This document shows positions 808 through 20,618 of a stretch of DNA of 47,382 nt, piece by piece; position 1 is the stretch's first letter; the number at the start of each line of letters is the position of its first letter. The stretch spans positions 1 through 47,382 of IMG/VR virus record IMGVR_UViG_3300023180_000102; one strand, written 5' to 3'. Below the pieces are notes generated by a model. It was given only the letters and a program-made list of their open reading frames with translations, was not told where the DNA came from and did not search any database. Source of the stretch: a virus. The position numbers were made by a program, and so were the translations under genes.

Positions 808-1604
808 TATCTGTCTCCTATCAGTTTGTTAAAAGTTGGTAACATTAATTGTACAGCATCTCGATGTGCCTCGTCAAGTGGATGTGTTGTCCCACGTGGA
901 TAATCATTGAGTAGTGCCCATTGATTGAACCCCATCATCCTCTCTCCAAAAGAGAACCATTTGGTAAAGTCTATTTCATGGTACAATGCACTCATTAAAC
1001 TGTCCTGGTCCTTGTGGTGTTTGAATTCGTTATAGAACAGTGTGTTGTCTGCTAGTGTGAACATGAACGGTATGTTCTTCTTTTCCAAAATATTTTGTAA
1101 CCAGATGATGCTTTTCCAACTGAGATATGTCTCATGGTACTGATTTGCCGCATATTTGTATATTGCTTCTGCAAATGATTTTACGCCGGTCTCTTCAAAG
1201 GTATCTCTCCTTGTCCTCCATTGCTCTTGTTGTGTCTCTGATCCAGCGATATGTCTGAATGCCTCTTCATTTCCTGCATCAGTGTCCCATGGCGATATAC
1301 TAGCCCACCTGGTCTTTTCCAATGCCCTGTGTCTTGGCATTGCCCAATCATATCGAGAAAGAAAACTCCACATTACCACCACACACTTTACATCATTGCC
1401 TTTGCTTCCTATGGCTTCGAACACCCGCCTGGCTATGCCGGAGTTACCACTGCCCGGATGCGAGGCACACACGTACTGATCGCTTGAATTCAATTTCAAA
1501 CCATGAGCCCACGACATCTTGGACGGCACACTACCGTCAACGTCATCACTCAATTCGTGGCCAAACGTGAAACTGCAACCACCTGCTATGAATTTCTTAG
1601 TCAT
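807..1604 (-). CDS. SGNH/GDSL-hydrolase-like protein
   Basis: A 265-residue protein with the ends expected of an SGNH hydrolase. Near the N-terminus, AGGCSFTFGHE (residues 7-17) resembles block I, with Ser11 as candidate nucleophile. Near the C-terminus, THPLDEAHRD contains Asp244 and His247 in the D-x-x-H arrangement of block V. Middle segments GSGNSGIAR and VVVMWSFLSR could supply the Gly and Asn blocks. Such enzymes remove acyl groups from sugars or lipids. The gene overlaps the preceding radical SAM gene by 8 bases and is followed by the 34-aa ORF. The context of glycosyltransferases and radical SAM genes suggests action on a modified glycan or peptide, but that is inference. Catalytic activity is not proven by the motifs. 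Confidence 0.7.
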   Translation of the reverse strand: MTKKFIAGGCSFTFGHELSDDVDGSVPSKMSWAHGLKLNSSDQYVCASHPGSGNSGIARRVFEAIGSKGNDVKCVVVMWSFLSRYDWAMPRHRALEKTRWASISPWDTDAGNEEAFRHIAGSETQQEQWRTRRDTFEETGVKSFAEAIYKYAANQYHETYLSWKSIIWLQNILEKKNIPFMFTLADNTLFYNEFKHHKDQDSLMSALYHEIDFTKWFSFGERMMGFNQWALLNDYPRGTTHPLDEAHRDAVQLMLPTFNKLIGDR

Positions 1605-2778
1605 ATATTTTCAAAATGTTATTTAAAAGAGGGAACACTTCTCCGAAATTTTCTTTCCTGTACTTGTCTGTCTGTAAAATCCTTGCTTTACGTTGTTCTC
1701 TGATTTCTGGCGTATCTCTGTCAGCGGCGTTCATGAACCGTATACTGGGTTGATAGTCACTCAGCATACCATACCTGTCCACCACTATGTCTTTGACCTG
1801 CTTTGGCAGTGTCTGTATATTGAACACGTCTGGGTCGAAACAGGTGTTAACGTAGAAGAACTTGGGTTGAAACTGTGCAACCCATAATGCTATCTTGGCC
1901 CAGTTGAACACGTTGAATATGCTCACCGTTGAACATATCTGGAAGTGCATATTATGTGTCTTCATTTCTTTGAACTTGACGAGATTAGCACTAACTTCTC
2001 TCCAATTGGCAGGATGACGTTGGTATTCGAATGGTTCTCCCACATCATCTATGCTGAACGCCACTTCAACGTGTTTGAAGTATGACCATAGGTCAAATAT
2101 CTCTTGTGGTGGTAATTGTGTTCCGTTTGTGTTGTAGTGTATATCAATGTTCTTAGCATATCCCTTCTCCACGCAGTGCATCAGTATCTTGAAGTGATCT
2201 TTGATCATAAATGGTTCCCCACCCGTGAACTCAAAGTACTCAACGTGTTTTAGATCTTCCTGTAACTCCTCGAAGAACTGTGGATTACGTTTCGGCCATC
2301 CACCCTCCTTCAGTTGTTTTCTAGCCACGAGATTATCTCCGCCCTTGGCTGTCTCATAATCTATCTCTTCCTGTGCCCATTTCGAGGAACTCCAGGAACC
2401 ACATATCCTACATTTCAAATTACACACGTTGCCTAACTTAAAGTCAATGAACTTCAGTGTTGGCTCGCTATCAGGTGTCCAGTCCGTTAGACTCGTCTTC
2501 ATCTTATATATTGAATTCTGTCTTTTGCTTGTTTTACCTGCGTCCTCTTCCTGCCAACAACTCTGACAACCCTCAGGACGTTCTCCATTCCTGAACTGTT
2601 CTCGCAAGTTACTCATGTATTCGGTATCTTGTATTGACTTGAGATTCTGCTCGTATACCTTTACGTTTGGTACACTACCTTTGTACAAACAACAGGGCGA
2701 TGCTCCGCCGTTGACATCAACTTCGAGGTGCGTCCAAGGAAGCGGACATACATTCGACTTTATATACTTTTCCACCAT
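1597..2778 (-). CDS. Radical SAM protein with N-terminal twitch-type Cys module (copy 5 of 5, CC subtype)
   Basis: A 393-residue radical SAM enzyme. The cluster motif C-x3-C-x2-C is at Cys119, Cys123 and Cys126 in the context NVCNLKCRICG, and the SAM-contacting GGEP is at 186-189. Before the core lies a cysteine module: Cys11 in CPLPWTH, Cys29-Cys30 in SPCCLYKG, and Cys71/Cys74 in GCQSCWQEE. This matches an auxiliary-cluster twitch domain placed N-terminally, a layout known in a family of radical SAM proteins. Family members generate a 5'-deoxyadenosyl radical; many twitch/SPASM relatives modify peptides. The substrate here is unknown. It overlaps the upstream paralogue by 19 bases and is the last radical SAM gene to be transcribed. 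Confidence 0.9.
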   Translation of the reverse strand: MVEKYIKSNVCPLPWTHLEVDVNGGASPCCLYKGSVPNVKVYEQNLKSIQDTEYMSNLREQFRNGERPEGCQSCWQEEDAGKTSKRQNSIYKMKTSLTDWTPDSEPTLKFIDFKLGNVCNLKCRICGSWSSSKWAQEEIDYETAKGGDNLVARKQLKEGGWPKRNPQFFEELQEDLKHVEYFEFTGGEPFMIKDHFKILMHCVEKGYAKNIDIHYNTNGTQLPPQEIFDLWSYFKHVEVAFSIDDVGEPFEYQRHPANWREVSANLVKFKEMKTHNMHFQICSTVSIFNVFNWAKIALWVAQFQPKFFYVNTCFDPDVFNIQTLPKQVKDIVVDRYGMLSDYQPSIRFMNAADRDTPEIREQRKARILQTDKYRKENFGEVFPLLNNILKIYD

Positions 2779-4079
2779 TCCAATAATTCTTCGTCCCTTG
2801 CTAATATTTTTTTTATGTCTGTGTTTCTGATACGATCTAACCTCTCTACCGTTTGTTTGCCTTTCCTAAGTCCGTCCTCGTATTCATTTTTGCTATAGGT
2901 TTCGTCATAGGTTGGCTTTTGTTTAAGGTCTTGTAGTGCTGTGTAGAAATAAATGTGTTTAGTAAATCGCTTCTTGTTTTTAGTCAAACAATCATCTACA
3001 ATTCTGTCTAAAATTTTACGTGGAATACACATAGGGGACCATAAGTTTGTTGGATCAAATCCAAACACACGTTTTGCGAGGATGTCTATGTCTATGTCCT
3101 CGGCCGCATCAATCATATCTGTCAATCCTACCATGCCTGGCATGGTCATTGTCAAATCTATCCTTAGATCTCTTCGATTTTTCATAAACTTTCTTGCATA
3201 CTTCATGTTTGCAACCCATTCATCCCATTTCAAACCTGTCCTCACATACTCTCCGACTTCGCCCGCACCGTCAATGCTGGCCAAGATATTCCAATATTTG
3301 AACTTGCTTAAAATATCGTCAAACAAATTCATACCATAAAAATTTATCCTACTCATGTTGGAGTTATATCTAATGCTTACACTATCGTGATATCCTAACT
3401 CTATAATCCTTTTCATCGATTCCCAATGAATCTTCCACATCAATGGCTCTCCTCCACACCAATATATCTCTTTAATTGATTTTGACTCAACAGCGTCTTT
3501 GAATTCTTTTATTATGTGTTGATCATGGAATTTGTCAATTTCTGCTTTGATGTCTTTCCTCATCCACATCTGTGCGGGATTTTCCGGATTCCAGTCACCT
3601 GTCTCCTTGTTCTCCGCTTCCCAACTGGAACTTAACATATCTCCACACATCCTACATTTGAAATTACAAAGATTGTTGAATCTGTAATCCCAACTTGTAA
3701 CTTTCATATTTGTGTGCCCATCATCCCTCGTGCTGTCAAAGGCTTCGTCGATTTGCTCTTCGTATAACTTGTTGAAATGCGACCTATATGTCGCAACAGA
3801 TAAAAGTTTGCCATTACACACCTGACATTGAGGTATTTCTTTACCTTGCATTAGATCAACCCTAATTTTTTTCAAATACTCGCTGTTCCAATGTTTCTCG
3901 AGGGTGTCTGGTGAGAAAGGTTGTGATGTTTTATTAAGGTCGATATACTGATTGAATGTTTTTGAATCCTCACGTGAACTACAACACAATCTACGTTCCA
4001 TCTGGGGAGATAGATATGTGTGCGTCCATGGCGCCATGCAGAATGTTTTGTTGCCTTCGCTGGGTTTAATTCTCTTCAT
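2760..4079 (-). CDS. Radical SAM protein with N-terminal twitch-type Cys module (copy 4 of 5, CC subtype)
   Basis: A 439-residue radical SAM enzyme. The core motif is at Cys138, Cys142 and Cys145 (NLCNFKCRMCG), with GGEP at 209-212. N-terminal cysteines are Cys14 (CMAPWTH), Cys32-Cys33 and Cys85/Cys88 (CQVC), equivalent to those of the two neighbouring CC-type copies. A downstream stretch, LASIDGAGEVGEYVRTG, resembles the conserved substrate/SAM region shared by all five copies ('S-D-A-x-G-x-x-x-E-Y-x-R-x-G'). The gene is clearly AT-richer than the copy at 6679-8049, suggesting a different origin or age. It overlaps both neighbours by 14-19 bases. Substrate unknown. Confidence 0.9.
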   Translation of the reverse strand: MKRIKPSEGNKTFCMAPWTHTYLSPQMERRLCCSSREDSKTFNQYIDLNKTSQPFSPDTLEKHWNSEYLKKIRVDLMQGKEIPQCQVCNGKLLSVATYRSHFNKLYEEQIDEAFDSTRDDGHTNMKVTSWDYRFNNLCNFKCRMCGDMLSSSWEAENKETGDWNPENPAQMWMRKDIKAEIDKFHDQHIIKEFKDAVESKSIKEIYWCGGEPLMWKIHWESMKRIIELGYHDSVSIRYNSNMSRINFYGMNLFDDILSKFKYWNILASIDGAGEVGEYVRTGLKWDEWVANMKYARKFMKNRRDLRIDLTMTMPGMVGLTDMIDAAEDIDIDILAKRVFGFDPTNLWSPMCIPRKILDRIVDDCLTKNKKRFTKHIYFYTALQDLKQKPTYDETYSKNEYEDGLRKGKQTVERLDRIRNTDIKKILARDEELLEWWKSI

Positions 4080-5349
4080 ACAACTCCGCTAATTCTGGAA
4101 ATGTTTCCAATATGTTTTCGTCCCTGATCACGTCCATCTTTTTCATGGTGTCTTTGAACTGTTGTATGTCCTTGTTGTTGTCTCTCCTCATCATGTAATC
4201 CAGACCAGATTCAAACCCTTTGGTCGCCCTAGTAAGACCGTCCAGAGGACGCAACCATTCCAGATGTGCCTCGATCTTTTCTTTGACTTTTTGCTTGTAG
4301 GAATCTGGTAAAAGATCAATCCTCTGTGCGTATGGATATTGCAACAGGTTGAAGTTGAAGTCCTGCGGTTTCAACAGGCCTTGCTCCACCCAATTCCTGT
4401 GAAAGTCTGATATGTGAAGTGCATTAATAAGTCCCACTGTGCTTGAAATGTAAAAGTCAACTTGAGGACAAACTTCTAACATACGTTTCCTGTTCGCCAC
4501 CACATCCTTCCATACTGTGCCTTTACGCATGTACTCTCCCCTGGCTCCTTCGGCATCTAAACTTGCACCTATCGATACGGAATCAAACTTGTTCCATAAC
4601 TCTAATACATCAATGTCTTTGTATTTTGTTCTCGTGAAGTTTGTGTTGTATATGAGTCTTACATGATACATCTTACGTCTGTCCAGTTCTTTTAATATCC
4701 TGTAATGTTCTTCCATTATTATCGGCTCTCCACCTGCAAAGTAAAATTGTTCAACATGGTCAAACTGTTCCAACATCTGTTCCCATATGTCATCACTGCT
4801 CCTGCCAACTTTCATTATCTTTGCATGATTTGGTGGTGCACCTGTCAATTTTTTATGGTCCTCATACCAGTTCGAACTGAACCACGTACCACAACTCCTG
4901 CAGGCAAGATTACATAGGTTGCTAAATCTTATATCCCAGTACTTTATAACAAAGTCAGCAGTACCGTCAGGTTGCGTATTTTCCACCATCCCAATATTGT
5001 GTCCAAAGTGTTTGTTCGAACTGAGACGTAAACTGAAAAATCCCGACTTCTCTTGATCATAACATTTGCCACAATGTTTGCTGGCTTTGTTTGCCAACAT
5101 GTTTTTCCTTATACCTTTCATCTCGTCATTGTTAAAAACTTCTGCCATTGAGTTTTTATTAAGGTCGCCAACAGGATATCTATCCAACGCAAAACAACAA
5201 GGATATGCCCTGCCATCAGGGAAAGCATGTATATGCAACCATGGCATCATACAGAAAGTATTACTATCCAGTAATAACTCCTTCTCTTTAGGAGTCATGT
5301 CTTTAATTTTTAGTTTCTCAGGCTCTTTCGCCCCGTACTCATATGCCAC
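4066..5349 (-). CDS. Radical SAM protein with N-terminal twitch-type Cys module (copy 3 of 5, CC subtype)
   Basis: A 427-residue radical SAM enzyme with a GTG start at 5349, preceded by AGGAG nine bases upstream. The core motif is Cys146, Cys150 and Cys153 (NLCNLACRSCG), with GGEP at 206-209. The N-terminal module has Cys33 (CMMPWLH), Cys51-Cys52 (YPCCFALD) and Cys93/Cys96 (CGKC). An extra lysine-rich segment of about 30 residues precedes the first cysteine, absent from the two following CC-type copies. The later stretch SIGASLDAEGARGEYMRKG matches the conserved region of the paralogues. The start lies inside the end of the upstream gene (11-base overlap), so expression is coupled. Substrate unknown. 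Confidence 0.9.
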   Translation of the reverse strand: MAYEYGAKEPEKLKIKDMTPKEKELLLDSNTFCMMPWLHIHAFPDGRAYPCCFALDRYPVGDLNKNSMAEVFNNDEMKGIRKNMLANKASKHCGKCYDQEKSGFFSLRLSSNKHFGHNIGMVENTQPDGTADFVIKYWDIRFSNLCNLACRSCGTWFSSNWYEDHKKLTGAPPNHAKIMKVGRSSDDIWEQMLEQFDHVEQFYFAGGEPIIMEEHYRILKELDRRKMYHVRLIYNTNFTRTKYKDIDVLELWNKFDSVSIGASLDAEGARGEYMRKGTVWKDVVANRKRMLEVCPQVDFYISSTVGLINALHISDFHRNWVEQGLLKPQDFNFNLLQYPYAQRIDLLPDSYKQKVKEKIEAHLEWLRPLDGLTRATKGFESGLDYMMRRDNNKDIQQFKDTMKKMDVIRDENILETFPELAELYEEN

Positions 5350-6682
5350 GGTACCATTCTCCTATTATTGGGAAAGTCTTTTCAAAGTCCTTGCCTGATC
5401 GTTTGTCGTACTGACTGTAGAATTCCTTGAAGTCTTTTTGTAACTTGCTCTGTTCGGCCGCACCCGCATGCGGTGTTTTAACCACATCCAAGTAATCTAT
5501 TAATCTCTGTGTTTGATCTATTTCCATGCTCTCCAACCATCTGTTATTACTAGTTAAGAACTTTACCAAACCACCCTTAAATTTATTTCTAAGGTCATCT
5601 GGTAGCACCAGGGGTGACTGAAAACTAGGGAACCTCAATATATTGAGTGTGTAATTAATTGTTGGTCCATACACTTTACTCGCACTTTTGAACCAAACCA
5701 TCTTCTCTAAAAACTCAGGCAGTGTTTCTAAACACAAAGCATTTATGGTTGCCATGTTGTGTATTTCAGAAGGTACTTTGTCCACCATCATGTGTAAAAG
5801 GTTAGAATGCCATGTCCCAAAGTCCAATCCATCCCTGATGTATTCTGCCTGATCGAAAGTGGCTTCGCAACTTGTGTACAAATGAAAATTCTTGAACCCT
5901 TTCAGTTTCGTTTTGAATCTATCTATAATGCTTTGCTTCGCTCCTAGATTAGAGTTGATGGCAATACGCATGTCTGGGTTCATTTTGTCCCCCTGTGTTT
6001 CTATCCAATCCAACAACCTCCACAGGTTGGGACTCATCATCGGCTCTCCGCCCGTGATCCTTAATTCATCCAAACTCTTGTGCAGATCCGATTCCCACCA
6101 CTTGTAGAATGCCTCAACGTATGGGTTTGTCTCGTCCTTCTTGTATGGTTCCGCTGAATCGTGTGCATGGGTGAAATGGTTACGTCCGTCCGACTTCAAT
6201 CCTGTGTATGGCCCTTGTCTTTTGATGTTGTTTGCCCACGTAGAACTGAATTGCGGATTACAATACGTACAGGCAAAATTACATGTCCTGTCAAATGCAA
6301 TCTCAAGTGTTTTCAAATTAACATTATCCGTATAAGGTGATTCATATGCATTTTGCAGATCACCATTGGTGAATATCTTAGATTTATATACCCTGTCGCT
6401 TATGTTGTCTCTGCCAACGTCTTCTATCTTCCAGCAGTACTCACACCCTGCAGGCCTCTCACCACACTGCATCTGTCTTCGTTGTTCTTTCTTCTGCACA
6501 GTGTTGTGTATCGCACTGGGATTTGTTTTTATCTCTTCGAGGTCGATCTTGTGTGGCAAGGGATGGTGGCAACTCGTGGTCATTCCCGATCCTAACCATA
6601 TTGTGGCATTATACCATTTGGCTCCACAGAAACTTGAACTCTTTGTGTCTAATACTTGTTTTTTGTATTCTAGATCATTCAT
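5339..6682 (-). CDS. Radical SAM protein with N-terminal Cys/His module (copy 2 of 5, SC-H subtype)
   Basis: A 447-residue radical SAM enzyme. The chosen ATG at 6682 overlaps the upstream TGA as ATGA and has AGGA just upstream; a GTG four codons earlier (6694) is possible but less likely. The core motif is Cys134, Cys138 and Cys141 (RTCNFACTYCN), and GGEP lies at 211-214. The N-terminal module differs from the CC-type copies: Cys19 (FCGAKWYN), then a single cysteine followed by histidines (Cys38, TSCHHPLPH), then Cys80/Cys83 (GCEYCWKIED). Only the copy at 6679-8049 shares this variant. The substitution of a Cys pair by Ser-Cys-His-His suggests a different auxiliary cluster ligand set or none. 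Substrate unknown. Confidence 0.9.
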   Translation of the reverse strand: MNDLEYKKQVLDTKSSSFCGAKWYNATIWLGSGMTTSCHHPLPHKIDLEEIKTNPSAIHNTVQKKEQRRQMQCGERPAGCEYCWKIEDVGRDNISDRVYKSKIFTNGDLQNAYESPYTDNVNLKTLEIAFDRTCNFACTYCNPQFSSTWANNIKRQGPYTGLKSDGRNHFTHAHDSAEPYKKDETNPYVEAFYKWWESDLHKSLDELRITGGEPMMSPNLWRLLDWIETQGDKMNPDMRIAINSNLGAKQSIIDRFKTKLKGFKNFHLYTSCEATFDQAEYIRDGLDFGTWHSNLLHMMVDKVPSEIHNMATINALCLETLPEFLEKMVWFKSASKVYGPTINYTLNILRFPSFQSPLVLPDDLRNKFKGGLVKFLTSNNRWLESMEIDQTQRLIDYLDVVKTPHAGAAEQSKLQKDFKEFYSQYDKRSGKDFEKTFPIIGEWYRGI

Positions 6683-8049
6683 GCGTTCCTGCACTCCTCC
6701 CAGAATTCTTCCATCTCAGGAAAGGTGTTCAAGAACCTTGTGAGACGTCTGCGATCGTGTTCGTTAAAGAAGGCGTAAAAGTTTTTTTTGTTTTGCGTAC
6801 TTGCGTCCGCGTTTTCGCGCCAGTAAGCGAGATTCCTCTGCATCTTCTGGATCTCGAAATCCTTGAATATGTGTAGCCCGTTCGCCTCACCGGAATTGGC
6901 CTGCATGTATTCTATGTTCGCCTCGTGTATGGCCTGGTACGACTCAGGAAGCAGTGTGATCTGTTGCCATGCGGGTTGTCTAAGCAGTGGCACATCGAAC
7001 CACACCCTCTGGTAGGTCTTAGAGTACTTGGTACGCAGTTCCAATATCTTCTCCAGCAGTTTGTCCATACTGGTTATGCTGAGGTTGTTGTAGGTGCATA
7101 TGAATGTGATCGAATTACGTCCGGGTATCCTGTCCAGAAACTCCTCCACGTTGTCCATCATGCGGTCAAAGTCCAGTCCGTCACGTATGTACTCCGCACG
7201 TTTGCCGTATGCGTCCACGCTCACGAACTGCATCATGTGTTCGACCTTCTCCTGCATACATATCTCCTGTGCCATGTTGAAGTACTTCTCCTTCAGTTTG
7301 TTGTCCGGCGGACACATGTTGCTGGTCACGTTGAGGTGTAGGTCCTGCTTGGGGTTGTCCATTATGTATTGGAACACCCGGTACGTGTTCTTGTCCATCA
7401 TGGGTTCTCCGCCCGTCATACGGAAGTGTTTGAGATTCTTGTACAGTGTTGGCCACCACTTCCAGAAAGCGGTCACGTAGGGGTTCTCCTCCCTGTTGGG
7501 TATGGGACTCCTACGACCCTGGAAGTGCTCTGGTGCGTTGTGGGGAGGGGTGGTAGGATATTCGCCGTATCTGTCCACCTCCTTGGCCCACGTGGTCGAG
7601 AACTGTGGTGAACAATAACTGCACTTGAAGTTACAAGCGTTGCTGAAGTTCACCTCCACATATCTGGGGGTCCAACGTTCGTCTATGGGATTCTTCCTGA
7701 TGTGGTCAAAGTCCTGCATGGCCCATGGCTCTCCGGAACGGTAGTGCCTGTCTGACATCTCGCCAGTCTTCTCTATGTTCCAGCAGTAACTACAGCCCGC
7801 AGGTTTCTCGCCCGTCAACATCTGTTGACGCTGATGCAGTTTCTCCTTTGTGTTGTGAAGTGCCGCGGGATTGTCTTTCAGTTTTGTTGCATCTATCTCG
7901 TGCAGTGGCGGATGGTAGCACGAGTTCGTAAGTCCAGTGGGCAGGTGCAGTGACGTCTGGTTCCACTTTGCCAGACACATGGTCGGGGAAACTTCTTGTA
8001 GTCTATCCTTGACTTTCAAGGCGTCTGCTTTGTAATCACTGGTACTCAC
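6679..8049 (-). CDS. Radical SAM protein with N-terminal Cys/His module (copy 1 of 5, SC-H subtype)
   Basis: A 456-residue radical SAM enzyme with a GTG start at 8049 behind a GGAG sequence, overlapping the upstream glycosyltransferase-like gene by 14 bases. The core motif is Cys139, Cys143 and Cys146 (NACNFKCSYCS), and GGEP is at 213-216. The N-terminal module contains Cys25 (MCLAKWNQ), Cys44 (NSCYHPPLH) and Cys86/Cys89 (GCSYCWNIEK). It is the nearest paralogue of the next gene, sharing PQFS-TWA after the cluster motif and R-TGGEPMM. Its GC content is visibly higher than that of the CC-type copies. It is first of the five in transcription order. Substrate unknown. Confidence 0.9.
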   Translation of the reverse strand: MSTSDYKADALKVKDRLQEVSPTMCLAKWNQTSLHLPTGLTNSCYHPPLHEIDATKLKDNPAALHNTKEKLHQRQQMLTGEKPAGCSYCWNIEKTGEMSDRHYRSGEPWAMQDFDHIRKNPIDERWTPRYVEVNFSNACNFKCSYCSPQFSTTWAKEVDRYGEYPTTPPHNAPEHFQGRRSPIPNREENPYVTAFWKWWPTLYKNLKHFRMTGGEPMMDKNTYRVFQYIMDNPKQDLHLNVTSNMCPPDNKLKEKYFNMAQEICMQEKVEHMMQFVSVDAYGKRAEYIRDGLDFDRMMDNVEEFLDRIPGRNSITFICTYNNLSITSMDKLLEKILELRTKYSKTYQRVWFDVPLLRQPAWQQITLLPESYQAIHEANIEYMQANSGEANGLHIFKDFEIQKMQRNLAYWRENADASTQNKKNFYAFFNEHDRRRLTRFLNTFPEMEEFWEECRNA

Positions 8050-8935
8050 GATCTTGCACTCCCTTGTTGATGTGTTGTGGCATTATAAATCTGTAGAACT
8101 TGCTGTCATCCTCGCAATACTCTGCTATAGGTATGTCCAGTTGTTGTCTTAGGCTGTTACCAAACAACTGTAACTGGTCATCTATGTTTTCTATATCCAC
8201 TTGGTTGAAATAATTTTGCATCTCATCAAGATCCCTTATCTTGAAAAGTTCATTATTGGGTTCAAGCACAGTGTAGAAACAACCCATCCTCGCACCCAGC
8301 ATGGCATATTTGCCATTGAGTATGTCCGCACCTATCGTACACCAAGTGCTTAACATTTTTAAATTTTGTCTCCAAATGGACTTAGAATAGTTTTTGGCTG
8401 TTATAGGTTTTCCCTTGTCAGTACTCATCTTGACACCTTCCCTGTAGCCTGCCACAAACGCCTGTTGTGGTGTTGCATTTATGACTGTCGTGGAATAGCA
8501 GTTGTGCAGATTCTCGTGTGGCACTCCCCAGCAGAAATCTATCTGGTTTTCTTCGGTGTCAGCGTTTTCGTGTGTCCGCATGTTTAGGCAAGTGTCTTTA
8601 GACCAACCAACCAATCCTCCATTGCCGTACACCAGGCCATTTATGTTGTTCCTTGCTCTCCACCTGTGTACTGCTTTCTTGTCTGTCTTGGTCCAGTCCA
8701 GTGTCTCCAAAAGGAATTTCTCATCAATGATGTTATCACCGTCAACGCTTATGAAGAAATCGGTCTCAGCCACGTCTGCCGCGGCCTTGTGTGCGTTGTC
8801 AAAACCCACCACGCCGTCAACACGCTTGGCCCATGGCACCTTGTTCTTGAGGTCCGCCCAGTTCTCTTCCTTGTTGGGCTCCTTGAAGGAGATGTACACG
8901 AAATCAAGATCACTTATTCTGACTCTATCTGCCAT
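8036..8935 (-). CDS. Family 2-like glycosyltransferase (GT-A fold)
   Basis: A 299-residue protein whose first 90 residues resemble a GT-A nucleotide-sugar transferase. DFVYISFKEPN forms the first strand, DNAHKAAADVAETDFF is the helix before the active site, and SVDGDN carries a D-x-D motif for metal and nucleotide-sugar binding. The remainder is not recognised; it contains a Cys/Trp-rich segment (DFCWGVPHENLHNC) and VAGYREGVKMS. The likely role is sugar transfer to a phage or host surface component, or to a modified base, but the acceptor cannot be inferred. It overlaps the 90-aa ORF upstream by 22 bases and the first radical SAM gene downstream by 14 bases, placing it in the same transcription unit. 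Confidence 0.65.
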   Translation of the reverse strand: MADRVRISDLDFVYISFKEPNKEENWADLKNKVPWAKRVDGVVGFDNAHKAAADVAETDFFISVDGDNIIDEKFLLETLDWTKTDKKAVHRWRARNNINGLVYGNGGLVGWSKDTCLNMRTHENADTEENQIDFCWGVPHENLHNCYSTTVINATPQQAFVAGYREGVKMSTDKGKPITAKNYSKSIWRQNLKMLSTWCTIGADILNGKYAMLGARMGCFYTVLEPNNELFKIRDLDEMQNYFNQVDIENIDDQLQLFGNSLRQQLDIPIAEYCEDDSKFYRFIMPQHINKGVQDREYQ

Positions 8936-9186: not shown

Positions 9187-9966
9187 CTAAATCCTCATAC
9201 TCTTGTTGTGATAGTGCAAGATCCTCTGTTGAACATGTCCGCCCATGTAAATTTTCTCGTCACACCTCATGGGATAAAGGTAATTGTCGTTGTCAAATGC
9301 AGGATTTACTCCGTTGATGTGCTTTTTATTGTGCATAAATTTGAACCAGTCATATTCTATTTTGTTCGTTTGTAATGGATCTTGCAACTTATTCGCCAAA
9401 GCATAAACGACATCGGTCGTGGGTTGAATGTCATGACAGTTTATCAACACCTGTTCTCGGATCATCTGCCAATTTTTTATTATCGTCTCACAAATATCAT
9501 AGAATTGTTTGGCCTTATTGCTTTTCCTAAAGTAGTGCAGTCCATTGTAGACATCAGGCAAGTGATTTCTCACAAAAAGTTTCCTATAATAACTGTTCAC
9601 GACCACCTCGTCCCTGTAGTTGCGGCAATGGTAAGAAAACACCTGATCATGTTGCCATAGATGGTACCACCACCAGTCTGTGTTTTGGGTGAACAACATG
9701 TCCGCCTCCAGTTTTATTGTGTGGGTGAACGGCGACAACCTGAACGCCTTATACTCGTTGCTCATCTTCCATTCTTCGTTGATACTATCGTCCTGCTTCA
9801 GCACCCTGACGTGGTCAAAAAGTGTGTCGTCCACTGTCTGGTTGGTCACTACACAGACCTCGTTGTGTCTGTTGACCCCTTTGATGCTCCGTGCCAACCT
9901 CCTACTGAGCTCTATGTAGTCCGTGGTCGAGTTGTTCAGTGCGAACCACATGTACCCCTTACTCAT
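9187..9966 (-). CDS. Glycosyltransferase-like protein (nucleotide-diphospho-sugar transferase fold)
   Basis: A 259-residue protein; the ATG at 9966 is preferred over the adjacent GTG because AAGGAG lies seven bases upstream. The segment YMWFALNNSTTDYIELSRR is a first strand and helix, NEVCVVTNQTVDD is a second strand, and TIKLEADMLF is a D-x-D-like metal site (E-A-D) as in GT8-type enzymes. A C-terminal NPAFDND and MGGHVQQRILH resemble the acceptor-side region. The preceding gene encodes a protein of similar size and fold. Both probably act in one glycan pathway. The sugar and acceptor are unknown. The protein also has a tryptophan cluster (DWWWYHLW) that may contact substrate. Confidence 0.6.
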   Translation of the reverse strand: MSKGYMWFALNNSTTDYIELSRRLARSIKGVNRHNEVCVVTNQTVDDTLFDHVRVLKQDDSINEEWKMSNEYKAFRLSPFTHTIKLEADMLFTQNTDWWWYHLWQHDQVFSYHCRNYRDEVVVNSYYRKLFVRNHLPDVYNGLHYFRKSNKAKQFYDICETIIKNWQMIREQVLINCHDIQPTTDVVYALANKLQDPLQTNKIEYDWFKFMHNKKHINGVNPAFDNDNYLYPMRCDEKIYMGGHVQQRILHYHNKSMRI

Positions 9967-10711
9967 CACACCACTCCTTGTCCATTACATGCACGTCCTG
10001 TCCTGAAGTGTAATTGATGCAACCATCGTGCTTGAAGACGATTCCATCGTGGTCGCTGTCTATCACGTCCACCCTGTCCGCCAACATGGCCATGGGGGTT
10101 GGTATGTAGTTTCCTAGGTTAAGTTGGTGGAGTGCTATCGCGAACGCGAAATCATTCCTGTAATTGGGGTATTTGATCCTGTACAAGTTCCTGTAATGTG
10201 TGTAATGGTCCTGCACGTGCCTTATCATATCAAACACCCTACGGGCGTTTTCCCCTTTTTTGAACAAGGTGACTGTTGCCCACACCAATGGCAAGACGCC
10301 CTCATCCTTGCCTTCTATGATGTCATCACCAGTGAGGTCACTTACCTTGTTGTGTAGCATCATGTCAAATCGCGTCCTGGTCAACTCCAGTAGTTGGTCT
10401 GAGAAAACGAAATAATCACAGTCCATCAATATTGTGGTGTCATATGGTGAGTGTTGATAGGCCAAACCCCTCTCCTTGTTGTACCACGCTATGCCATGAC
10501 CCCTGTATGATCTCCTGTTGCCTGTCTTGGGTTGTATCAACTTGTAGTTGATCATGCCCATGGGTTTGAATTTTTTGAATGTGGCTATGTCAGTGACCAC
10601 TGTGACTTCGAGACCGAGATACCGTTTTATTTGTTCTATACATCGCTCCGCCAACCTGTGGTACTTGACTTCAGGTGTATCAAAGCAGTAAAGCAACACT
10701 CCAGTGGTCAT
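9959..10711 (-). CDS. Glycosyltransferase-like protein with DCD motif
   Basis: A 250-residue protein starting at ATG 10711, which overlaps the upstream TGA as ATGA; an in-frame TTG just before it is less likely. It opens with VLLYCFDTPEVKYHRLAERC, a typical first strand and helix of a GT-A transferase. It contains TTILMDCDYFVF, where D-C-D is the probable metal/nucleotide-sugar motif, at the expected distance of roughly 95 residues. A later stretch with FAIALHQLN resembles the acceptor-pocket helix of related enzymes. Role: sugar transfer to an unknown acceptor. It is the second gene of the accessory operon. Confidence 0.6.
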   Translation of the reverse strand: MTTGVLLYCFDTPEVKYHRLAERCIEQIKRYLGLEVTVVTDIATFKKFKPMGMINYKLIQPKTGNRRSYRGHGIAWYNKERGLAYQHSPYDTTILMDCDYFVFSDQLLELTRTRFDMMLHNKVSDLTGDDIIEGKDEGVLPLVWATVTLFKKGENARRVFDMIRHVQDHYTHYRNLYRIKYPNYRNDFAFAIALHQLNLGNYIPTPMAMLADRVDVIDSDHDGIVFKHDGCINYTSGQDVHVMDKEWCDE

Positions 10712-11028
10712 CAAGACGTCTTCTTGGCAAGATCCTGGTGTAACTGTTGATATGCATTCAGAGTTTCCTGGTTCCGCTCAATGAGTTTTCCAAGGAAGTC
10801 ATCTGGGTCCGTGATGTGACAGGGATTGTCATTCACATCCAACACATAAAAATCCTGCATCTGTTGTTTGAGTGTGCTCACCAGATTTATGGTGTTGGCG
10901 TCAGCGACGAAAAGCCTTTCGTTGTAGGCCATGATCTGCCGAGAACGCATTCGTTCCAGGGCGTTCTTCTTTGCCTGGGCTACCTTGAAAGTTAGGTCCG
11001 CGTGTTTCTTGAGATTGCCAATATCCAT
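10711..11028 (-). CDS. 105-aa hypothetical protein, helical
   Basis: A 105-residue protein, mostly helical. It begins MDIGNLKKHADLTFKVAQAKK, has a short strand pair around VLDVNDNPCHITDPDDF, and ends in a Gln/Leu-rich helix (QETLNAYQQLHQDL) that could form a coiled coil. I do not recognise a family, although the pattern looks typical of T4-like marine phages. It is the first gene of the leftward accessory operon. Its ATG has no visible ribosome-binding sequence and directly abuts a 17-base palindrome that contains a -10-like TATAAT, so the message may be leaderless (see the promoter entry). Confidence 0.75.
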   Translation of the reverse strand: MDIGNLKKHADLTFKVAQAKKNALERMRSRQIMAYNERLFVADANTINLVSTLKQQMQDFYVLDVNDNPCHITDPDDFLGKLIERNQETLNAYQQLHQDLAKKTS

Positions 11029-11045
11029 AACTGTATTATACAGTT
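11029..11045. repeat. 17-base inverted repeat abutting a start codon
   Basis: AACTGTA-TTA-TACAGTT is a perfect 7-base inverted repeat with a 3-base centre, placed immediately upstream of the ATG at 11028. It contains the -10 hexamer of the predicted leftward promoter. It could be an operator or a small hairpin; no U-run follows it, so it is not an intrinsic terminator. Confidence 0.6.
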
Positions 11046-11063
11046 AATTATTGGTAAGAGCAA
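11035..11063 (-). promoter_or_regulatory. Sigma70-like promoter for the accessory operon
   Basis: On the minus strand TTGCTC (11063-11058) and TATAAT (11040-11035) are separated by 17 bases, close to the bacterial sigma70 consensus. The predicted transcription start falls on or next to the ATG at 11028, so the first gene would be translated from a leaderless or near-leaderless message. It lies in the only real intergenic gap between the fibre module and the accessory operon. Confidence 0.55.
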
Positions 11064-11079
11064 TACAGATAAAAATTTA

Positions 11080-12058: not shown

Positions 12059-13687
12059 TTATTTAACTCCTATCACGCACTCTGTGAGTGCTGTTTCTAC
12101 GTTGTATTTATCCTTGATCAGCCTGCCTAGGGTGTTAAAAGCGGTACATTCCTCCAGATGAGCCACACGTGCTTGGCCGTTGCCTGCTGATACCACACGA
12201 TCACCCGCTTTTCCGGTGCCCTGTAATTTCACCATCACACGCCCCTTCAGTGCCACCATAGGGTGTGAGTCGTTGTTGCCCGCTTGTGCGTTCATCAAAA
12301 ACGCCGGTGACTCAGAAATGACACCAAAAACCGCGTCTGACAGCTCATCCTCGCATTTTGTGATTTCTGCTTCGCCGCCTAAAATCACAACATCTCCCAC
12401 CTCGACTGGTATATCTGTTTCATATCTTTCTGCCAAGTCAGCGTACATGGCACTTGTAGTGGTTGCGTGTACCACGTTTGCCCTGATGTCTACCAGGGTT
12501 GGTGCTTCTAACTCAGTGTCTGTCTGTGCAGACTTGAATGCCGTCCAGGCTCCGCCCGCATTTCCGTATGTGGTTGATCCGTCATCAGCGAATGTCTCGT
12601 CCCAAACCCAGTATAGATTCTGTTCCGTAGCAGACGATAGTTCTCCCCTGTTCACTTTCAATCCAGTGTAGTTAGGCATGCCTGCGTTTGAAGATATGTT
12701 CCTGTTCAATTCTATGATGTTGTCCTCGACACTCAATGTGCTTGTGTTGACTATGGTGTTTGTGCCATCGACTGTGAGATCTCCCACTCTCAGGTGTTCT
12801 ATCCTACCTGTTGATCCTGTGATTCTCAATGCCTCTTTTGTTGTGCCACCGTCATTGACTGTGAATATGATGTCCTTGTCCTGCGTGGTCTGTGCTATGG
12901 TGAAATCGTCTGTTGACAGACTCATGGTTACATCATTTCCTGCACCCAGTCTAATACCGTCATCCGTTTGCACCGTCAGTCTACCCGTTGTTGTGTCTGC
13001 AGAATCAGATCTTAGGAAGTTTGCCGCGGCAACACCGCCTAACGCATCTGAATCTGTTGCAGTTCCTCTGAACTTCGCAGATGCCACTGATGTTGAAAGT
13101 TGGATACCTTGTGCCACTGTGGAGAAACCTGCTGATATCAGTGCGGATCCCAGTGCCTCTGTTGCACTCGGAGTGAATGCCAGGTCGGAAACGATGCCCA
13201 CTACCGTGTCATTGGTCACTAATTTTAAAATATTTCTTTTTACCCCTGTGTTGTCCTCTGGTGATTCGGTGATGACTTGTGTCACCCCTGATCCAGACAC
13301 TGTGGTTGGTCCGATCAATGTCCATGCTGATCCTGTGTACACATAAAGTTGTGTGTTTGTGGTGTCGAACCACATGTCTCCCTGTACCGCGTTGGCTGGT
13401 GCAGTAGCGGAGTTAGATGTTGATCCAACCGGTTTGAATTTTGATCCCGTGTAAACATTCAATTGGTTGTTCGTCTTGTCATACCACAACTGTCCCTGTA
13501 CCTTGTTGGAAGGTGCTGTTGTGTTGTTGAAATTCTCTAGGAGTTTTACAAGATTCTCGTTCAACCTCTCACCAAACCCTGCGTAGCCCTTGCCTATCAG
13601 TGTTAGGTCCGTAGTGGCCACATCGATAGTCCCGTCGGCCAGTGTGACCAATAGGGTTCCGAATGTGTTGTTTATCTTGTATGCCAT
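12059..13687 (-). CDS. Fibre-like structural protein, paralogue A (with C-terminal YADLAE domain)
   Basis: A 542-residue protein sharing an architecture with two genes at 16999-18372 and 18383-19879. The N-terminal GFGERLNENLVKLLENF is followed by a duplicated unit with the pattern 'G-x-L/M-W-x-D ... Q-L-x-V-Y-T-G-S' (about 64-85 and 103-125). The middle has DALGGVAAANFLRSD and TTGRLTV, common in trimeric beta-rich fibres. The C-terminus contains YADLAERYETD and VFGVISESPAFLMN. This last region vaguely resembles autoproteolytic or chaperone-type fibre ends such as the Peptidase_G2/IMC type, but I cannot show catalytic residues. Probable location: a short or long tail fibre, or another receptor-binding part of the baseplate. 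Confidence 0.75.
   Translation of the reverse strand: MAYKINNTFGTLLVTLADGTIDVATTDLTLIGKGYAGFGERLNENLVKLLENFNNTTAPSNKVQGQLWYDKTNNQLNVYTGSKFKPVGSTSNSATAPANAVQGDMWFDTTNTQLYVYTGSAWTLIGPTTVSGSGVTQVITESPEDNTGVKRNILKLVTNDTVVGIVSDLAFTPSATEALGSALISAGFSTVAQGIQLSTSVASAKFRGTATDSDALGGVAAANFLRSDSADTTTGRLTVQTDDGIRLGAGNDVTMSLSTDDFTIAQTTQDKDIIFTVNDGGTTKEALRITGSTGRIEHLRVGDLTVDGTNTIVNTSTLSVEDNIIELNRNISSNAGMPNYTGLKVNRGELSSATEQNLYWVWDETFADDGSTTYGNAGGAWTAFKSAQTDTELEAPTLVDIRANVVHATTTSAMYADLAERYETDIPVEVGDVVILGGEAEITKCEDELSDAVFGVISESPAFLMNAQAGNNDSHPMVALKGRVMVKLQGTGKAGDRVVSAGNGQARVAHLEECTAFNTLGRLIKDKYNVETALTECVIGVK
12105..12112 (-). promoter_or_regulatory. Possible late promoter word GATAAATA
   Basis: The minus-strand sequence GATAAATA lies inside the end of the 542-aa fibre gene, about 50 bases before the start of the 324-aa structural gene, leaving a leader of roughly 40 bases. 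It matches the NATAAATA form of the T4 late promoter. Because it also encodes part of KDKYN, it could be chance. Confidence 0.35.
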
Positions 13688-13892: not shown

Positions 13893-14357
13893 TTATTTAT
13901 TACGGCTATCGATCTGCTCATCGTCGGATATCCAAGTTAAATCCCGGGAATAGGATCCATCCAGATCCCTCAGGAAAGTCTTGACATTGCTCTCCGTAAG
14001 CACCATATTGTGGTATTTCGTATATCTTTTGTGCAATGCCTGTTCCTTTGTGGCGGTGTACACCAGTTTCATGCCCTTTTGCCTGGCCAATTCCATGACA
14101 CGATCTATACACAATTTCAGACATTTGTGTACCAGGCGTTGTTCTGCCTTCTTGTCTGTGACTATCCACTCCATGAATGCAAACTGTGTGCCCACACCTA
14201 TGTAGAGTCCAGCCGCACAAACGGGTGCTCCGTCATATTCTACGACGATACCATCTGGTGGCAGGCACTCCTTTGGCACCGTGCCAAACTCCCAATCACT
14301 CCACCACTTGACCAATGTGTCATAATCAGTGTCTCTGTCCCATGATCTACTTTGCAT
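13893..14357 (-). CDS. GNAT-like phage protein
   Basis: A 154-residue protein with a GNAT-like layout. An N-terminal SWDRDTDYDTLVKWWSDWE is followed by strands VVEYDGAPVCAAGLYIG and FAFMEWIVTDKK, and by a helix with RLVHKCLKLCIDRVMELA. A C-terminal YTATKEQALHKRYTKY resembles the last acetyl-CoA-side helix. The acetyl-CoA loop is poorly matched, so activity is uncertain. The 'W-W-x-x-W' and 'EWIV' features look familiar from many tailed phages. The gene overlaps the SDR-like gene by 11 bases and forms the end of a three-enzyme cassette inside the fibre region. Confidence 0.6.
   Translation of the reverse strand: MQSRSWDRDTDYDTLVKWWSDWEFGTVPKECLPPDGIVVEYDGAPVCAAGLYIGVGTQFAFMEWIVTDKKAEQRLVHKCLKLCIDRVMELARQKGMKLVYTATKEQALHKRYTKYHNMVLTESNVKTFLRDLDGSYSRDLTWISDDEQIDSRNK
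13894..13901 (-). promoter_or_regulatory. T4-type late promoter word AATAAATA
   Basis: AATAAATA on the minus strand, 20 bases upstream of the ATG at 13873 and followed by AAGGAGAG. It overlaps the stop codon of the GNAT-like gene. The distance gives a short leader that still contains the ribosome-binding sequence. This is the best-spaced late promoter in the fibre region. Confidence 0.6.
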
Positions 14358-14931
14358 TTTTCTGTATCACTATCTTGTTGACGTTGTATGTTGATTCGAA
14401 ACAGTGCCTGACCGCATCCGCCACTTCGTGTGCTGTCAACTTTGGCAGATCTTGCCACAATCCTTTTATCATGTCCGTGTCCACCACATCCGGACATACA
14501 TCATAGACGGACAACCTTTTTGAGATTAATTCTTGTTGTAGTTCTTCGATGTATTCTATCAGTTCTTTTTTTATTTCACAGTACTGTACATATTTGAATT
14601 TGTCCCAGATCTGGAATTGGCTGTAGTCTGGCTCTTCGTCAAGTCCTGACGTGCTGGTTATCACCGCTACTTTCATTTTATCAAAAGCATACAATCCGTA
14701 TATCCTTTTCAGTAGATTCAGTTGTCCCCTGTCTGCGTGTGCGTTCAACACAACTAGGTCACAGCCTTCAATGTTTTCAATTATCTTTTCTTGATCGTGT
14801 ATGATGTCAAAGCCATTGCTCCTGCTCATGCCAATCACTTGGTATTTCTTTTTATTGTATAGGTCACATATGGCCTTGCCTATGCCTCGGGTGTGTCCTA
14901 TGACTGCTATTTTATTTTTTTCTTGATTCAT
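14347..14931 (-). CDS. Short-chain dehydrogenase/reductase (SDR) family protein
   Basis: A 194-residue Rossmann-fold protein. The N-terminal cofactor motif is IGHTRGIGKAI (T-R-G-I-G, residues 11-21), matching the SDR 'TGxxxGIG' loop with the first glycine preserved. LVVLNAHA (59-66) corresponds to the 'NAG' block. The catalytic set is present: Ser93 or Ser95 in ITSTSG and Tyr117-x-x-x-Lys121 in YCEIK. The C-terminal segment VCPDVVDTDM resembles the 'PG...T-x-M' cofactor clamp. It is shorter than typical SDRs (about 250 residues) and may have a reduced substrate domain. Function: NAD(P)-dependent oxidation or reduction of an unknown substrate, possibly a sugar. It overlaps both neighbours. Confidence 0.8.
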   Translation of the reverse strand: MNQEKNKIAVIGHTRGIGKAICDLYNKKKYQVIGMSRSNGFDIIHDQEKIIENIEGCDLVVLNAHADRGQLNLLKRIYGLYAFDKMKVAVITSTSGLDEEPDYSQFQIWDKFKYVQYCEIKKELIEYIEELQQELISKRLSVYDVCPDVVDTDMIKGLWQDLPKLTAHEVADAVRHCFESTYNVNKIVIQKNAK

Positions 14932-15577
14932 ATGTGTCCACTAGATTTTCCAACCCCTCGAAACAATCCGAATAGTGTTGGTAATATTCCTCAAACTTGT
15001 CTTTAGTGTACACTGATTCCTTGTAAAAGTCAATTAACAACGTGGTTCTTGGTCCTGGGTTGTTGTTGAAGCCGTTGTGTAACTGGATGTCTGGCTGGAA
15101 TATAAATGCCTCTCCGCTTTTCCACGTCATCAGTTCTTGCTGTTTGGTTTCAACGTTCATGACGTACATTCCACTTTGATCCCCACCGCCGTCGTCAAGG
15201 CACATCTGGTATCTCCAACCGCCCTCGTTGTCTGTGTGGTTACCTATCTTTGTGTTTGGTCCAACTGTCATTATGGCCACGTTTGTCTTGTAGGGAAATT
15301 TTCTTAAAATTGAGTATAACATTGGATAATCATTAAAGGACTGACCCTCGTGTTCTCCTGATTGTATTCCCAACGCCTGCCATTCACCATGAACATAATC
15401 TCCCGACTTGTCGTCAAAATCTTCCGGTAGTCCCCTGACACTGTCTGAGAAGTCTTCTGGATCTAGGAAAGTCTTGTTGGGTTGTGTGTCAAACTCGTGT
15501 TTGATGTCCTGCCAGTGTTTGTCTAACTGTCTGAAACACTCGCCCTGTTCACCGTGGTAAAAACTTTTATCAAGCAT
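14912..15577 (-). CDS. 2OG-Fe(II) oxygenase-like protein (Asp/Asn beta-hydroxylase type)
   Basis: A 221-residue double-stranded beta-helix type protein. The iron triad can be read as His114-x-Asp116 in IGNHTDNEGGWRYQMCL and His167 in IQLHNGFNNNP, with Arg177 (GPRTTLLIDF) as the 2-oxoglutarate ligand. The spacing fits aspartyl/asparaginyl beta-hydroxylase-like proteins. Family members hydroxylate protein side chains or small molecules. The gene overlaps the Hint-tailed adhesin gene by 8 bases upstream and the SDR-like gene by 20 bases downstream, so all are probably co-translated. A natural guess is modification of a fibre protein or a glycan, but there is no direct evidence. Confidence 0.75.
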   Translation of the reverse strand: MLDKSFYHGEQGECFRQLDKHWQDIKHEFDTQPNKTFLDPEDFSDSVRGLPEDFDDKSGDYVHGEWQALGIQSGEHEGQSFNDYPMLYSILRKFPYKTNVAIMTVGPNTKIGNHTDNEGGWRYQMCLDDGGGDQSGMYVMNVETKQQELMTWKSGEAFIFQPDIQLHNGFNNNPGPRTTLLIDFYKESVYTKDKFEEYYQHYSDCFEGLENLVDTYESRKK

Positions 15578-16994
15578 TCAGTATATTAACATTTTTATCA
15601 TGAATCTGTCTATCATGATCCTGCCAATTACTAAAAAACCGTTCGCCATGGTTGGCTAATTCTTGTTGCTCGCTTAATTCAAAGTAGTCTGTGAATTCTA
15701 TTCCGTTGATTATGATCCTTCTGTTCTCTGAACCAAACACATACACTATTGCATCATCATTGCCAAGGGATACACCGTGTTTGCTGTTCTCCACCCTGGT
15801 CCATTTACCATCTTCTTTGACCATGTGTGTGCCTGATACCTGTATACCTTTGTATTCGTACAGGTTATCAATCAAGAACTTACCTGTTGCGAACACCTTG
15901 CCACCAACCAAAACTGTGTCTCCTATGTCTACTTGCTCAACTGGTTTAAGTGTGCCATCGGCCATCGAGATCATGGTACCTGCTATGAAACAACCACCGC
16001 CACCAGTTCCTCCACCACCTGAACTTGTGCTTCCTTCTGCATCTCCAAAGCCGGCCGCTGTCTGCGTGAATGTTGATAGGGCGAATATCGCCTTCCATAC
16101 ACCACCTACTTTATACCATCCTGCTGTGACCCTTTTCCAACGACCACTTACTTTAGTATATACAGCAGAGATATCTTTCCAGACACCACCAACTTTTATA
16201 CTCCCACGTGCATTTGAGTTGAATATTACTACTGCTTTTCCATCTGCTCCTGGAGAACTAGGCTGTCCGCCAACTGCTACACCTGAAGTGTAATATGCTG
16301 ATCCTGTGCCTCCTGGTGTTACACCCGATCCATTGTCTTCCGTTCCGCCGGCCGCGTTGTTTGATCCTGACTTACCACCAGTACCTCCATTATCGCCCGA
16401 TCCGCCGTCGCCTGATGTTCCGCCATCGACACCGCCACCACCGGCTCCACCACCGCCACCATCTCCAGAGTGGTCTTTGCCGTTCTCCCCCAGTGTTCCT
16501 GGTGAGTTAGCCGTTGCCGTGTTTGTGTTTATTCCTGCTGTTCCGTTTGAACTCTTACCTGCTCCCGCTCCACCACCGCCGCCTCCTGCGACTGCGATGT
16601 CCGTTCCGTCAATCCTTACTAGGGTGGCTCCTCCGCCACCTCCACCAGATCCTGAGTATGGTTGTGGTCCGGCGTTACCGCCTTCTCCGCCTGAATAGCC
16701 TGTTTTACTTTTTCCATTTGTACCACCTGGTGCACCGCCACCCGAACTACCACCTGCTCCGCCACCGCCGACAACTATTTCCATGGTGGTGTTGATCTGT
16801 GCTGATGATATGGTTATCGTGGACGATGTGACATAGTGTCCTGCCGCTCCTGTTCCACCTGGCCCTCCGGCGTCTGAACCGCCGCCGCCGCCTGCTCCAC
16901 CCCAAAGGTGGACATCTATTGATTCTGTCCCTGGTGGAATTACGACTTGATTTATCGTACCTGAATAGTTAAATGTAAAGGCTTGTGTGGCCAT
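15570..16994 (-). CDS. Glycine-rich adhesin with C-terminal Hint domain
   Basis: A 474-residue protein with three parts. Residues 1-30 form a beta-rich N-terminus (FTFNYSGTINQVVIPPGTES). Residues about 31-250 are extremely glycine-rich, with runs of five or six glycines, like the polyglycine-helix host-recognition domains of T4-like adhesins. Residues about 265-310 hold three short 'K-V-x-G-x-W-K' repeats. From Cys335 the sequence CFIAGTMISMADGTLKPVEQ, then VDIGDTVL and SGTHMV (His390), is a Hint (Hedgehog/intein) domain: a nucleophile Cys start, the 'VE-x-x-x-x-GD' block and a T-x-x-H-type block B histidine. Autocleavage before Cys335 is possible. No C-terminal extein is evident. GGGAGG precedes the start at good spacing. 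Confidence 0.85.
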   Translation of the reverse strand: MATQAFTFNYSGTINQVVIPPGTESIDVHLWGGAGGGGGSDAGGPGGTGAAGHYVTSSTITISSAQINTTMEIVVGGGGAGGSSGGGAPGGTNGKSKTGYSGGEGGNAGPQPYSGSGGGGGGATLVRIDGTDIAVAGGGGGGAGAGKSSNGTAGINTNTATANSPGTLGENGKDHSGDGGGGGAGGGGVDGGTSGDGGSGDNGGTGGKSGSNNAAGGTEDNGSGVTPGGTGSAYYTSGVAVGGQPSSPGADGKAVVIFNSNARGSIKVGGVWKDISAVYTKVSGRWKRVTAGWYKVGGVWKAIFALSTFTQTAAGFGDAEGSTSSGGGGTGGGGCFIAGTMISMADGTLKPVEQVDIGDTVLVGGKVFATGKFLIDNLYEYKGIQVSGTHMVKEDGKWTRVENSKHGVSLGNDDAIVYVFGSENRRIIINGIEFTDYFELSEQQELANHGERFFSNWQDHDRQIHDKNVNILNA

Positions 16995-20610: not shown

Positions 20611-20618
20611 TATTTATT
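20611..20618 (-). promoter_or_regulatory. T4-type late promoter word AATAAATA next to a start codon
   Basis: AATAAATA on the minus strand ends six bases before the ATG at 20604, overlapping the stop region of the 4281-aa gene. If it is a promoter, the mRNA would be leaderless; no Shine-Dalgarno sequence is present. It may instead act as an AT-rich translation signal. Confidence 0.45.

Follow-up and report, generated by a model that had tools for sequence, protein, structure and literature searches.

A conserved array of five radical SAM genes in the tail fiber region of a probable jumbo phage, with a possible role in surface decoration

Gene content and origin of the fragment

The window analyzed here is an IMG/VR virus record in full, a 47,382-base fragment whose left end is cut off. 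Near that end, on the minus strand, five radical SAM open reading frames (ORFs; 1597-8049, designated A to E) overlap by 11 to 19 bp and lie in a run of genes headed by a fiber-like protein, p324. The features of this region are as follows.

144-701, minus: conserved protein, putative GNAT-like; found in 29 contig groups; no GNAT match in Pfam
703-807, minus: 34-aa ORF; found in 45 contig groups, kept in closer relatives and not required for the set
807-1604, minus: SGNH-hydrolase-like protein, at motif level only; cluster in 50 contig groups; no Pfam match
1597-2778, minus: radical SAM gene A; NF033640, 364.8 bits; Pfam SPASM over cutoff at residues 11-75
1620-1625, minus: late-promoter-like motif before the SGNH-like gene; present in 33 of 44 relatives
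2760-4079, minus: radical SAM gene B; NF033640, 317.5 bits
4066-5349, minus: radical SAM gene C; NF033640, 418.1 bits; Pfam SPASM, 42.4 bits, at residues 33-97
5339-6694, minus: radical SAM gene D; NF033640, 295.9 bits
6679-8049, minus: radical SAM gene E; NF033640, 329.2 bits; AlphaFold2 pLDDT of 92.5
8036-8935, minus: putative transferase with a VDGDN motif, before E; cluster in 68 contig groups
8914-9186, minus: 90-aa protein; closer relatives only; co-varies with the putative transferases
9187-9969, minus: putative GT-A-like transferase; D90 and D186 almost fully conserved in the family alignment; no Pfam match
9959-10714, minus: putative GT-A-like transferase, a paralogue of 9187-9969 and in the same cluster; no Pfam match
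10711-11028, minus: 105-aa conserved protein after the fiber-like gene; cluster in 61 contig groups
11080-12054, minus: p324, fiber-like and Ser/Thr-rich (26.5%), heading the putative late unit; candidate acceptor, based on promoter motif, co-variation, and composition
12060-12065 and 12105-12110, minus: two T4-type late-promoter-like motifs (TAAATA)

Judging from its genes, the window derives from an uncultured jumbo myovirus of the T4 superfamily. Its gp6-type baseplate protein is nearest to those of the jumbo myoviruses Atu_ph07, Phosso, and SCTP-2, and a pelagimyophage origin was dropped on the strength of this structural gene. A gene for a T4-type late sigma factor is also present, and gp6 is common to the window and related contigs of up to 338 kb. 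Contigs carrying gene C at 88 to 96% identity have been binned into marine-titled metagenome-assembled genomes (MAGs), one of them titled Candidatus Pelagibacter. Directly after the gp6-type gene lies a single 4,281-aa ORF (20614-33459).

Radical SAM enzymes and their N-terminal module

All five proteins matched NF033640, a twitch domain-containing radical SAM profile, over its full length (295.9 to 418.1 bits, E values of 5e-88 to 4e-125; curated cutoff, 170 bits). The initial annotation, which had proposed such a profile comparison, was correct in describing five overlapping genes that each carry CxxxCxxC, GGEP, and an N-terminal cysteine module. The two motifs and four N-terminal cysteines occur in all five proteins at a pairwise identity of only 18 to 34%, so the genes are not recent duplicates; their likeness at the sequence level is far beyond chance. 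CxxxCxxC and GGEP were kept in all 553 ortholog sequences and the spaced N-terminal cysteine pattern in 551, a set that includes repeats of the same contigs. We know of no reaction or function assigned to the NF033640 family.

The cysteines of the N-terminal module (C33, C52, C93, and C96) are invariant. A profile built from the first 130 residues of 19 family members matched two PDB sequences at an E value of <0.01, both of them BtrN, and aligned to the C-terminal auxiliary-cluster domain of BtrN (E = 1.2e-4). The Pfam SPASM model scored over its cutoff in A and C and below it in B, with no match in D and E. Based on the SPASM matches in A and C and the BtrN alignment, we infer that the module is a twitch-type domain relocated to the front. 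The auxiliary-cluster domain lies N-terminal to the radical SAM core in all five proteins, as opposed to the C-terminal placement usual for the SPASM/twitch subfamily. BtrN itself is the 2-deoxy-scyllo-inosamine dehydrogenase of butirosin biosynthesis, a sugar-alcohol dehydrogenase. Its auxiliary-cluster twitch is related to the N-terminal module of the five enzymes but lies C-terminally, and the radical SAM cores are not close.

Fold comparison of the AlphaFold model of E with the PDB returned weak, generic radical SAM matches with low TM-scores, with SkfB, viperin, BlsE, SuiB, and NifB scoring alike and anSME also among the matches, and therefore identified no substrate. Pfam searches for a leader-binding RRE (PqqD-like) domain, which divergent RREs would escape, gave no match in the five enzymes or the 90-aa protein.

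Conservation of the array and apparent allele exchange

Relatives with the array were collected in two viral scans, seeded on E or A. Among 65 nonredundant contigs that span the array, the order is E-D-C-B-A in 36 and E-D-C-A-B in 9, and a further 5 hold all five classes plus one or two extra genes; the other 15, which are more divergent, miss some classes. When the sample was seeded on the upstream fiber gene (12059-13687) and radical SAM genes were disregarded, such genes were found in 53 of 53 loci with room, meaning at least 6.5 kb downstream. A quick maximum-likelihood tree placed A to E in separate groups, with several forks weak or open, and the five probably represent separate, old orthologous classes in a fixed order. 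Purifying selection is indicated by a median amino acid divergence of 0.11 to 0.23, compared with 0.52 to 0.60 at fourfold sites; the value for B comes from only three comparisons. In each of ten larger viral contigs, 5 to 13 NF033640 genes score over the cutoff, some of them scattered singly.

The fixed order, the intact active sites, and the fiber-seeded sample agree with the earlier proposal that the phage carries a whole multi-enzyme cassette rather than a single auxiliary metabolic gene. That proposal was to be weakened by disrupted active sites in related phages or by separate occurrence in unrelated contexts. The active sites are intact in relatives, whereas solitary NF033640 genes are also present at other sites in these phages and in bacterial chromosomes.

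The genes of the region differ in how their alleles are inherited. Compared with close relatives, gene B is mostly 48 to 61% identical where A is ∼90% identical, and the B allele is uncorrelated with the adjacent A and C. With E controlled for, p324, the 105-aa protein, both paralogous transferases, and the 90-aa protein co-vary (partial r of 0.49 to 0.82, P = 0.001 from 1,000 permutations). No co-variation was detected for D-C, C-B, or B-A or between p324 and any of D, C, B, and A, and the pair D-B is weakly correlated (r = 0.19). Because adjacent radical SAM pairs do not co-vary, these genes appear to exchange alleles one by one at fixed positions. Linkage alone could help keep the p324 block together; the radical SAM genes are not so kept. 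Since their alleles do not track those of p324, p324 is only a candidate for their substrate.

Neighboring genes and precursor candidates

The glycosyltransferase-like, SGNH-like, and GNAT-like labels of the initial annotation, which were motifs read by eye, gained no support from Pfam, NCBIfam, or PDB profile searches. For the glycosyltransferases, Pfam searches of 55 homologues and a PDB profile search gave none. The VDGDN protein (8036-8935), of which relatives carry longer paralogues downstream, had no Pfam or PDB profile match, and we treat it as a candidate glycosyltransferase. The predicted fold of p324 is confident and has three viral matches; a fold search against the PDB returned nothing at an E value of ≤0.001.

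The gene at 14912-15577, initially read as a possible oxygenase, proved to encode an aspartyl/asparaginyl beta-hydroxylase (PF05118, over cutoff). Together with an SDR gene (14347-14931) and a gene for a small conserved protein, it forms a second small enzyme cassette between fiber genes (13893-15577). The glycine-rich structural-type protein encoded at 15570-16994 has a weak Hint-domain match (PF05203, E = 5e-4, below cutoff) and may include a self-processing element.

Three small ORFs had been suggested as precursor peptides, and all three were dropped as obligate substrates based on distribution and co-variation. Among divergent E-D-C-A-B relatives with the complete enzyme set, none has the 90-aa protein and most lack the 34-aa ORF. 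Although conserved, the 105-aa protein varies together with the fiber-like gene and the putative transferases. No precursor peptide conserved with the full enzyme set was found, in a search that very small or divergent ORFs could escape.

A probable late transcription unit

Of the ten TAAATA sites on the strand that carries the cassette, nine fall in the 60 bp before a gene start, and such stretches make up 4.3% of the sequence. The late-promoter motif precedes p324 in 45 of 47 relatives; for each of the genes that run from the 105-aa protein to A, the frequency is only 0 to 5%. Given the motifs before p324 and the SGNH-like gene and the near absence of motifs between them, we infer a single late transcription unit comprising p324, the putative transferases, and the radical SAM genes through A. 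Between p324 and the 105-aa gene (11029-11079) lies the palindromic AACTGTATAATACAGTT, which contains TATAAT.

Sugar-pathway genes and bacterial occurrences

Nucleotide-sugar and glycan-modifying enzymes are absent from the window and present in its continuation in relatives. Beyond the cut left end, these carry a carbamoyltransferase, a sugar epimerase, a DegT aminotransferase, and a PIG-L deacetylase, all over Pfam cutoffs. The carbamoyltransferase is not a specific neighbor, as such genes are common in cyanophages, where the array was not found. Three phages have a second module elsewhere in the genome, with a radical SAM gene, a GT4-type glycosyltransferase, and an epimerase.

Around bacterial NF033640 genes, the recurrent neighbors are GDSL/SGNH hydrolases, PhyH oxygenases, carbamoyltransferases, DegT, glycosyltransferases, and further radical SAM genes, in a tally made without a background set and thus not a tested enrichment. 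The chromosome of Bacteriovoracaceae UBA6144, one example of such arrays in Bdellovibrionota, holds a relative of each class A to E in one array. Unlike the phage array, it is chromosomal, adjoins genes that read as rpmA (L27) and obgE (Obg), and has no fiber genes; no sugar genes were recognized in 17 kb around it. An Elusimicrobia MAG (bin-0981) has many NF033640-like matches in very long ORFs (600 to 1,200 aa), often in tandem.

Proposed function and alternatives

A joint pathway for the five radical SAM enzymes is well supported. For its product, we favor a late-expressed surface decoration cassette in the tail fiber region, by which an unusual glycan would be made or tailored on the fiber or the host surface; we give this reading a probability of roughly 0.45. 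Three observations favor a fiber or surface glycan: the sugar-pathway genes in relatives, a fiber-like gene at the head of the putative late unit, and the link to BtrN. Our confidence is limited because the transferases were matched by no profile library tried and because the Bacteriovoracaceae array has no recognized sugar genes nearby. The fold matches of E, which do not point to sugars, also count against a glycan.

Under the proposed mechanism, the phage would make an amino sugar via the epimerase, the DegT aminotransferase, and the PIG-L deacetylase. The transferases would place this sugar on an acceptor, for which co-inherited p324 is the first candidate and a host surface glycan the second. 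Each radical SAM enzyme might carry out one radical step on the glycan or its precursors (for example, dehydrogenation, epimerization, dehydration, or C-C bond formation), and carbamoyl or acyl capping would come last. The modification could change adsorption, help evade recognition, or keep out superinfecting phages.

Most characterized SPASM/twitch enzymes act on ribosomal peptides or proteins, and the five enzymes might instead modify a virion protein such as p324 directly. The SPASM matches of A and C would fit, as would the presence of the peptide/protein maturases SkfB, SuiB, and anSME among the fold matches of E and the position of p324, which heads the late unit and is regularly adjacent. 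However, p324 has one cysteine and is highly variable among relatives, no co-variation links it to D, C, B, or A, and the complete enzyme set has no consistently accompanying small precursor; we consider direct protein modification unlikely.

Somewhat more doubtful is a small-molecule or cofactor pathway that the phages share with Bdellovibrionota and that is unrelated to surfaces, which would yield a diffusible metabolite or nucleotide analogue for use late in infection. The occurrence of all five classes in a Bacteriovoracaceae chromosome without recognized sugar genes nearby speaks for such a pathway. The weak similarity to viperin and MoaA, which might also suggest it, spans the generic radical SAM core, and the phage late unit starts with a fiber-like gene in the tail fiber region.

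Five independent auxiliary genes gathered in a hypervariable island without a joint product would account for the single NF033640 genes scattered in the same genomes and for the independent variation of neighboring radical SAM alleles, but this is improbable given that 50 of the 65 spanning arrays hold the full set of classes in either of two orders, that radical SAM genes were consistently present at fiber-seeded loci, and that there appears to be one late unit.

Relation to known systems and significance

Reports of radical SAM genes in phages usually concern single auxiliary genes. Within the annotated phage collection, which may omit records very near the window, the occurrence of NF033640 was confined to two Vibrio jumbo phages and one single-cell marine virus. 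Vibrio phages K566 and K567 are jumbo phages with three to four related radical SAM genes close together, but at about 23 to 27% identity and without class-by-class orthology. The literature that we found contains no description of a conserved five-class phage array, and searches that combined radical SAM enzymes with jumbo phages and glycosyltransferases, or with carbamoyltransferases and tail fibers, returned no papers. The host recognition cluster of pelagimyophages, a variable tail fiber region with glycosyltransferases, contains radical SAM cassettes that were not analyzed there (PMC7029224). Those phages are T4-like phages of SAR11, whereas the gp6 of the window is nearest to that of jumbo phages.

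Taking these observations together with the favored surface-decoration reading, we tentatively propose that a phage-borne, late, multistep radical pathway builds a sugar or fiber modification by chemistry not so far known from viruses, using a five-enzyme module that also occurs in Bdellovibrionota and whose enzymes diversified individually by exchange of alleles; this fuller proposal is possible but open to considerable doubt. Contigs of this one phage group each carry 5 to 13 members of a single uncharacterized family, of which five form a fixed, probably late set behind a fiber-like gene. If the product is a surface modification, the array would represent unexplored radical chemistry in phage-host recognition and would give the NF033640 family its first testable context.
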